A program made the translations under genes and the position numbers. A model generated the notes under the pieces. The model was not told the origin of the DNA. It saw only the letters and a list, made by a program, of their open reading frames with translations, and did not search any database. Shown piece after piece: positions 18,101 to 20,080 of a DNA stretch of 64,000 bases. The DNA comes from Mariniphaga sp. (GTDB lineage: Bacteria; Bacteroidota; Bacteroidia; Bacteroidales; Prolixibacteraceae): positions 62,001 through 126,000 of the forward strand of contig JANXZJ010000079.1 of assembly GCA_025355585.1 (NCBI GenBank). The letters run 5' to 3'. Every line of letters starts with the position of its first letter. Position 1 is the first letter of the stretch.

Positions 18101-18798
18101 GTATGTACCTTGCCGGTTTCGATGTAAAAGACGTGCATATGACCGACCTGATCAGCGGACGCGAAACACTCGAAGAGCTGAACCTGATCGTTTTTGTAGG
18201 AGGATTCTCCAACTCTGATGTTCTCGGCTCAGCAAAAGGATGGGCTGGAGCCTTCAGATGCAACGAAAAAGCAAAAACTGCCCTTGAAAATTTTTACAAG
18301 AGAACTGATACGCTAAGTTTGGGAATTTGCAACGGTTGTCAGTTGATGGTTGAACTCGATCTTGTAAATCCGGGACATGCCGAAAGCATCAAAATGGCAC
18401 ACAACGATTCGCATAAATTTGAATCATGCTTTGTGAGCGTTGATGTTCAGGAAAATCAATCGGTTATGTTTAAATCACTTGCCGGCAAAAGCCTTGGAGT
18501 TTGGGTAGCTCATGGTGAAGGAAAGTTTGTGATGCCTTTTGCAGAAGAAAAATACCAGATTCCGGTTAAATTCTCCTACAGCAACTATCCGGGAAATCCC
18601 AATGGATCGGATTTTGATACCGCTGCCATTTGTTCGGAAGATGGTCGTCACCTGGCGATGATGCCCCATATTGAAAGATCTGTATATCCATGGCAGTGGG
18701 CTAATTATCCTGTGGACCGTAAAGATGATCAGGTAACACCATGGATGGAAGCTTTTGTAAATGCATTGAATTGGATTAAAAAGACAAAGGGAAAATAA
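15106..18798 (+). CDS. purL: Phosphoribosylformylglycinamidine synthase, large single-chain form
   Basis: [46 protein letters not shown]; C-terminal glutaminase [13 protein letters not shown]. Confidence 0.98.
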   Translation: [1230 protein letters not shown]

Positions 18799-18832
18799 CT
18801 TTTAGGTAATCTTTATTATTAGGCAGATTGGT

Positions 18833-19135
18833 CTATATTCTTATTGATTTTGGATTTTTCCTATTATCAAAAAGAGTCAGTATTACAATGTTATCAACTT
18901 TCACTTCAAAATAAATCGATGTTTGCTTCGAAAGTACACAGCGTTTTACATTTGATTTCAACTCACTATTTGAAAATATATCAGGATTTTTCGATATTAA
19001 GATCAATGTTTTATCAAGTAATTTATAAAAAGTCCGAATTTCCCTATGTGTCCATTTATTTGACAGATAGTCAATTATAGAATCTAAATTACTTATGGCT
19101 TCAACTGACCACTCAATCTTATAGCCACTTTTCAT
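18833..19135 (-). CDS. RelE/ParE-family toxin
   Basis: YKIEWSVEAISNLDSIIDYLSNKW ... NIVILTLFDNRKNPKSI, typical ParE/RelE layout; overlaps the upstream antitoxin ORF. Confidence 0.8.
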   Translation of the reverse strand: MKSGYKIEWSVEAISNLDSIIDYLSNKWTHREIRTFYKLLDKTLILISKNPDIFSNSELKSNVKRCVLSKQTSIYFEVKVDNIVILTLFDNRKNPKSIRI

Positions 19136-19352
19136 ATTTTTTTCTTACCTCTGAATGTGGAGTCGTTCTTCCATTTTTCGAATCTTCTAATCCTCTTTCA
19201 ATTGATTGGCGTTCTTCTTTCGAAATAGTATCCCACCAATCCAACTTTTTTGTTGATTGATCCTTCATCTTCTTCAATTGCAATAGGACTGAATTATCAT
19301 CTAATCCTGCAATCCATTGAATAATATCCAACTTCTCTGCATGTGTATTCAT
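19119..19352 (-). CDS. Antitoxin partner of the RelE/ParE toxin
   Basis: Small ORF overlapping the toxin start; C-terminus IERGLEDSKNGRTTPHSEVRKKYEKW. Confidence 0.72.
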   Translation of the reverse strand: MNTHAEKLDIIQWIAGLDDNSVLLQLKKMKDQSTKKLDWWDTISKEERQSIERGLEDSKNGRTTPHSEVRKKYEKWL

Positions 19353-19529
19353 TTGTAAATTATTTTAAGCAAATTTAAGTAAATAAAAATCATTTTTCAA
19401 AAATAAAACCGAAGTAAAATCTTATTAATATGCAGATTGCAGTATTCTGTTGACTTATAACCGGACATCAAATAGTAGTAAATAAAATCTTATTGAGTTC
19501 ACTTTTCGAAAAATCAGTCCAATAAATCT

Positions 19530-19772
19530 TTAACGCCATCCCTGAATTTCTGTTGTAAGATCATTATTTTCAGTTAATCTGTCATTTTTGGAATCAAGTA
19601 ACGATTGATCGATTCTCTTATTAAATTTCTCCAGTGTCATTGGCGAGAAGTCACCTACAATCATCCTTTCTTTTTCCTTCTCCAATAATTTTTCCAAACG
19701 AATAATGACATCCTCGCTCTGAATTTTAAGAAATTCTTGCACAAATGATATTTTTCGAGTCTGTAAATCCAT
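19530..19772 (-). CDS. Second, orphan antitoxin-like protein
   Basis: C-terminus LLDSKNDRLTENNDLTTEIQGW parallels LEDSKNGRTTPHSEVRKKYEKW of the neighbouring antitoxin; no toxin ORF follows it. Confidence 0.55.
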   Translation of the reverse strand: MDLQTRKISFVQEFLKIQSEDVIIRLEKLLEKEKERMIVGDFSPMTLEKFNKRIDQSLLDSKNDRLTENNDLTTEIQGWR

Positions 19773-19849
19773 CTTTATTTTTCTCAGTAACGTTCCAAAT
19801 TCAAAGATACAAACATTTGATGAATGTTGTTATTCAAAATCAATATGGA

Positions 19850-20000
19850 ATAGGTGGTCGCCACCCGGCCAGGATGCCCCATATTGAAAGATCTGTGTAT
19901 CCATGGCAGTGGCCAAATTACCCCGCTGACCGTAAAAAGGACCAGGTAACACGAGGATAGAAGCATTTGTAAATGCGTTGAATTGGATTAAAAAACAAAA
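19850..20000 (+). pseudogene. Decayed duplicate of the purL 3' end
   Basis: [32 protein letters not shown] versus purL [32 protein letters not shown]; a 1-nt deletion then breaks the frame while DNA similarity continues through aaatgcgttgaattggattaaaaa. Confidence 0.92.
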
Positions 20001-20036
20001 GAATACTGATTTTCATCAATTTCCCTTATCAAATTA

Positions 20037-20080
20037 ATACGGTTAAAAGATTTATAGAAAACCTTTTAACCGTATTTTTT
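20037..20080 (+). terminator. Strong intrinsic terminator, probably the ancestral purL terminator
   Basis: ATACGGTTAAAAG...CTTTTAACCGTATTTTTT hairpin plus T-run. Confidence 0.85.

Follow-up and report, generated by a model that had tools for sequence, protein, structure and literature searches.

In the 64,000-nucleotide stretch of Mariniphaga DNA analysed here (the window), a 1 kb toxin–antitoxin insert, hereafter the islet, separates the functional 3′ end of purL from a decaying relic of the gene's original end. The islet was likely acquired through one-sided homologous recombination, in which incoming foreign DNA was anchored in purL and its far end was joined illegitimately. Positions are collected in Table 1, and genomes and loci used for comparison are given by handles beginning with G and L.

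Table 1. Features at and beyond the 3′ end of purL, numbered by position in the window
Feature	Position	Strand	Evidence
purL, single-chain phosphoribosylformylglycinamidine synthase, intact, 1230 aa	15106–18798	+	NF003672 equivalog, 1414 bits
Copy F, functional purL 3′ end of the direct repeat; last ~50 codons with foreign affinity	18639–18798	+	Repeat alignment; synonymous-affinity scan
Toxin 1, ParE/RelE family, 100 aa, convergent with purL	18833–19135	-	PF05016 above curated cut-off
Antitoxin 1, 77 aa, overlapping the toxin 1 start	19119–19352	-	Partner homologues; weak NF050811 RelB/ParD match
Toxin 2, ParE-family remnant truncated to 23 codons (MALKIYWTDFSKSEL...)	19468–19539	-	Homology to the L069 and G008 versions
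Antitoxin 2, 80 aa	19530–19772	-	86–87% identical antitoxin (86% DNA identity) beside purL in G008
Copy R, relic of the original purL 3′ end: 1-bp deletion, conserved-residue replacements, TGA stop	19852–20009	+	Alignment
Hairpin terminator between the convergent purL relic and Dabb gene	20036–20076		Fold z −5.6, −16.4 kcal/mol
Stress-responsive A/B barrel (Dabb) gene, native right-hand neighbour	20079–20465	-	PF07876; directly after purL in five relatives
Repeat protein, conserved next gene	20517–23063	-	Same gene order in relatives

The duplicated end of purL

The two copies lie in the same orientation and, in a gapped alignment, share 86% identity over 150 bp (E 1.8e-44). The alignment consists of an ungapped segment at 85% (18639–18739 and 19852–19952) and a second at 87% (18743–18789 and 19955–20001), linked by a 1-bp deletion in the relic, which is thereby frameshifted; the end of the relic was refined to 20009. 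A duplicated purL end with a frameshifted far copy, as described in the earlier note, is thus present. These two copies are the only ones in the 4.1 Mb assembly, which rules out a dispersed repeat.

The relic bears the marks of decay, with substitutions at positions that every relative conserves (L to P, M to R, D to K and W to R). When changes are polarised with G008, the closest relative, the relic has accumulated nine nonsynonymous and four synonymous changes and the functional copy three and seven, respectively (Fisher p 0.10). The relic retains the TGA stop codon found in G008, while the functional copy ends in TAA. Within 18700–18729 are clustered seven of the ten sites at which the relic agrees with G008 against the functional copy (p 0.012), and 13 states are common to the two copies against G008.

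Native context and empty sites

The hairpin and the Dabb gene border the relic rather than the functional end, and folding revealed nothing comparable after the latter (z +0.4). The hairpin does not appear in the output of a G+C-based terminator scan because its stem is A+T-rich. Beyond the Dabb gene lies the repeat protein, which, from its sequence, we take to be SEL1-like.

Relatives provide the state without the insert. In five congeneric genomes (G002, G006, G004, G007 and G016), purL is followed by the Dabb gene with no islet, and in a further five genomes of the same genus it is followed by the next gene, likewise as an empty site. In G002 and G006, the two empty-site genomes whose junctions were folded, the order is purL, hairpin and Dabb gene. 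As this native context adjoins the relic in the window, the relic side represents the original purL end, supporting the conclusion that the islet is an insertion which left that end and its terminator on the far side. The proposals of the earlier note on the insertion, the one-sided position of the strong terminator and the stranding of the original end downstream are all borne out, the empty site being the outcome of a check that it had put forward.

Ancestry of the functional end

Across purL as a whole, G008 is the less diverged from the window genome at synonymous sites (0.49, against 0.64 for G015); in the functional 3′ block, the values are 0.69 for G008 and 0.35 for G015. G008 is closest in 21 of 25 non-overlapping 50-codon segments, and the last segment, which lies nearer to G015, is the extreme exception; among 1180 sliding segments of the same length, the most extreme start at 18619–18640. 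The last 50 codons reach z 3.9 for G015 affinity, a value attained by 2 of 20,000 codon resamplings, these p-values being somewhat optimistic because G015 was picked for the comparison after all relatives had been inspected. The same segment gives z 0.7 in a control with G008 as the reference. The switch in affinity falls at about 18610–18643, coinciding with the start of the relic, and the G015 affinity is confined to the duplicated block.

A tree of the 148-column block including both copies does not resolve them, and gene conversion between the copies could blur or mimic affinities. On these synonymous affinities, the functional 3′ end of purL has probably been replaced by one of foreign ancestry, in agreement with the earlier note. 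The test that it had suggested, namely that the functional end should be more divergent from relatives than the relic, gave the opposite result: the relic lies further away, because it has decayed. The functional end is abnormal in affinity, not in distance.

Genes of the islet

Toxin 1 matches solved ParE toxins by profile (E 1e-4), and homologues of antitoxin 1 adjoin homologues of toxin 1 at four other loci (L035, L037, L040 and L042). A toxin domain above the curated cut-off, together with an overlapping, conserved antitoxin partner, places the pair among ParE/RelE type II systems, as had been read from the sequence earlier. The additional antitoxin-like ORF noted at that time is antitoxin 2 of another module: homologues elsewhere adjoin intact ParE-type toxins, and its own toxin persists as the short remnant, which is homologous to the first 15 residues of the intact toxin 2 at L069 (PF05016) and of a 63-aa version in G008. 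The islet thus comprises a ParE-type pair and the antitoxin of a second module, with activity predicted from these homologies. No integrase or recognisable mobility gene was found among the islet ORFs, and Pfam searches of the three intact islet ORFs returned none.

A candidate terminal inverted repeat (18842–18855 and 19832–19845) was treated as due to chance; its left arm encodes the NPKSI end of the toxin, and the G012 islet described below showed no counterpart at its end.

Cargo at purL and the islet elsewhere

In G008 (L053), a truncated toxin 2, antitoxin 2, a degraded stretch and a HigB-type pair lie between purL and the Dabb gene, an array of leftover modules in which no relic of the purL 3′ end was found. 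The end of the truncated ParE-type toxin of L053 lies no more than a few bases from the purL stop codon. In G015, purL is followed by an HTH antitoxin-like gene, a cargo unlike that of the window. With cassettes between purL and the Dabb gene in G000 and G008, different cargo in G015 and empty sites in other relatives, the site after purL behaves as an integrase-free hotspot for toxin–antitoxin genes.

None of the genomes compared carries the order toxin 1, antitoxin 1 and antitoxin 2 beside a purL resembling the functional end; in G008, antitoxin 2 adjoins purL but toxin 1 is missing. The same three-gene islet does occur after sucB in G012. At that locus (L068, G012:C340), a 74-bp palindromic repeat (AGTGTCCCGGTGACT...AGTCACCCGGACACT; 7208–7281 and 8201–8274) flanks the islet. 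The core of this repeat has 47 hits in G012 and 0–4 in other congeneric genomes, and the flanks are therefore a lineage-expanded palindromic repeat and not a duplication of the sucB end.

Recurrence of duplicated gene ends

Three of the 203 purL loci tested, in three independent lineages, carry cargo between two strongly matching, same-strand copies of the gene's 3′ end; the search for other cargo between purL fragments advised in the earlier note thus yielded two cases besides the window. In G111, which belongs to another genus, the cargo is an AbiE-type pair consisting of a 206-aa protein and an AbiEii toxin (PF08843); at L097, it is 2.9 kb of unrelated genes, including TolB-like and signal-peptidase-like ones. 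The repeats measure about 150 bp in the window, 106 bp in G111 and 74 bp at L097, starting at −159, −105 and −50 relative to the purL stop codon, which speaks against one attachment site.

At the G111 locus (L199, G111:C27), the doubled end spans 7998–8103 and 9666–9771, at 88% identity, and a further 3.4 kb lie between the relic and the gene found after purL in G115. In G111, no foreign affinity was seen for the functional purL end. The L097 repeat, from a Dysgonamonadaceae MAG, spans 5658–5731 and 8634–8707 at 95% identity. An apparent second purL fragment in G065 proved to be an assembly gap (NN) within one purL.

A scan of 1477 ORFs in 200 loci, chosen around purL, recovered the 3′-end pattern at a histidine kinase gene in two species and at a 262-aa gene that, judged by eye, resembles an acyl-ACP thioesterase. 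Two 5′-end cases also emerged: one lies within another ORF, and in the other the copies are almost in tandem, 138 bp apart. A 3′ bias of duplicated gene ends is a lead only, the numbers being small and the loci chosen around purL. At L292, the two copies of the 3′ end of the 262-aa gene (2499–2569 and 5535–5605) flank genes for a C10 peptidase and a small lipoprotein-like protein. The kinase repeats, at L297 (8672–8760 and 11929–12022) and L285 (6304–6393 and 3189–3279), enclose a two-gene cargo that is 97% identical between the species, compared with 91% for the host kinase gene, and the repeat copies differ at eight and two positions within L285 and L297 and at 13 between genomes. A cargo more alike than the gene, and repeat copies more alike within genomes than between them, suggest that cargo has been exchanged and that the copies have undergone gene conversion. 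No common boundary motif was seen by eye at the insert junctions.

Origin of the insertion

Under the mechanism that we favour, DNA of a related bacterium, in which a purL 3′ end preceded toxin–antitoxin genes, would have entered the cell and aligned with the resident purL through the homology of their 3′ ends, the resident gene gaining the donor's last ~50 codons and staying intact. The other, non-homologous end of the donor DNA would then have become attached by illegitimate joining within the resident purL, some 156 bp ahead of the stop codon, shifting the resident purL end, terminator and Dabb gene 1.2 kb downstream, where the displaced end would decay. The insertion would be tolerated because purL retains a functional end, and the ParE-type pair may disfavour later loss through addiction. 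One-sided anchoring of this kind accounts for a functional end that is foreign and a native end that has been displaced, for repeats of differing length and for the missing integrase; repeat starts that differ between events are expected of an illegitimate junction. Sequence of foreign affinity lies on the homologous side and the switch in affinity (~18610–18643) falls within the shared gene, the arrangement of homology-facilitated illegitimate recombination. Against this explanation, G015, the closest genome for the functional end, has a different cargo at purL.

The main rival has the same anatomy and invokes an insertion with long target duplication of host sequence, in the form reported for restriction–modification genes (PMC3031569 and PMC1643837); both ends would have been identical and native at first, later diverging and becoming partly homogenised by gene conversion. 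The states that the two copies hold in common against G008 favour it, as do the L285 and L297 ends, alike within genomes around nearly identical cargo. It leaves unaccounted for a G015 affinity (z 3.9) that is absent from the rest of purL, and the seven synonymous changes of the functional copy exceed the roughly three expected from the relic's rate, a rough estimate; we regard this history as possible but rather improbable. Ordinary tandem duplication of the purL end and islet, followed by deletion of the second islet copy, would need no new insertion. Host recombination would suffice for it, and islet-type modules also lie at purL in G008, yet it requires two precise events and explains neither the foreign affinity of the functional end, nor the G008-like states of the relic, nor the native terminator, and is very unlikely. 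An artefact joining two strains at purL is more improbable still: the assembly is in 197 contigs and 84% complete, and strain mixtures can give false junctions, but the relic's frameshift and its replacements at residues conserved in every relative do not befit another strain's working purL, and two unrelated assemblies show the same structure.

Prophage e14 at icd and CIMEs such as that at fda combine an integrase with a fixed crossover core. The islet resembles them in its target, the 3′ end of a protein-coding gene, in its regenerated functional end and in the displacement of the original end to the far side, and toxin–antitoxin or AbiE-type cargo is present in two of the three purL cases. 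A remnant or trans-mobilised passenger of a site-specific element that targets and regenerates the purL end, an origin considered in the earlier note, is nevertheless unlikely. Neither an integrase nor a fixed crossover core was found at the purL islet, no integrase-like gene was seen in any of the three purL inserts, their repeat starts share no crossover point, and the pattern also occurs at other genes, around unrelated cargo. The purL 3′ fragment was absent from phage and viral-contig collections; in a plasmid collection, four Bacteroidales records matched the purL end at 61–71%, two of them with an annotated purL and none tied to an element, and a phage or plasmid origin of the purL end was rejected. 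The idea of a dedicated mobile toxin–antitoxin cassette is likewise not supported, given the other cargo and genes sharing the pattern and the missing integrase. We hold it doubtful, though slightly less so than a site-specific origin, that an unrecognised integrase-free or trans-acting route places small toxin–antitoxin or defence cassettes preferentially at core-gene 3′ ends, restoring the gene end and recurring at purL in Bacteroidota.

Relation to known systems

Homology-facilitated illegitimate recombination is documented in PMC3240628 and proposed for displaced effector genes in PMC5361080, and insertion with long and variable target duplication is described for restriction–modification genes (Nobusato et al. 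2000, Furuta et al. 2010, via PMC3031569 and PMC1643837). The anatomy of the islet matches this published pattern. Like the restriction–modification insertions, it carries cargo without mobility genes between long host direct repeats (150–160 bp, 86%), with an empty allele in relatives, a repeat length that varies by event and addiction-type cargo. It differs in its cargo of ParE-type toxin–antitoxin genes, in its Bacteroidota host and in the foreign affinity of the functional copy, which suggests that the repeat came with the DNA and was not copied from the host. With the effector case (PMC5361080), it has in common one homologous and one illegitimate end, a resident sequence displaced behind the new module and arrays of leftover antidote genes; here, however, the target is a metabolic core gene whose integrity must be preserved, and what has been displaced is a decaying gene end, not an immunity gene that is retained.

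Hotspots that lack integrases, with recombination taking place in the core genes on either side, are common (PMC5635113), and these, like the Neisseria minimal mobile elements (Saunders and Snyder 2002, cited via PMC2649163), hold differing cassettes between the same conserved genes without an integrase, as does the site after purL. A classic double crossover duplicates no gene end, whereas one is duplicated here.

Significance

The scar at purL bears on how small toxin–antitoxin pairs that lack mobility genes move from one chromosome to another: it records one such event, in the form of the displaced native end of the gene and a functional end of probable foreign ancestry. The islet and the similar integrase-free inserts beside purL in two further bacteria point to an uncommon way of acquiring genes, close to the pattern known from restriction–modification genes. 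Its recurrence around an AbiE-type pair in a different genus and around unrelated cargo in a different family suggests that cargo enclosed by a doubled gene 3′ end is a general signature, one that can be searched for in order to count such insertions and to ask whether addiction-type cargo is favoured, making the scar useful for studying the spread of small toxin–antitoxin modules.
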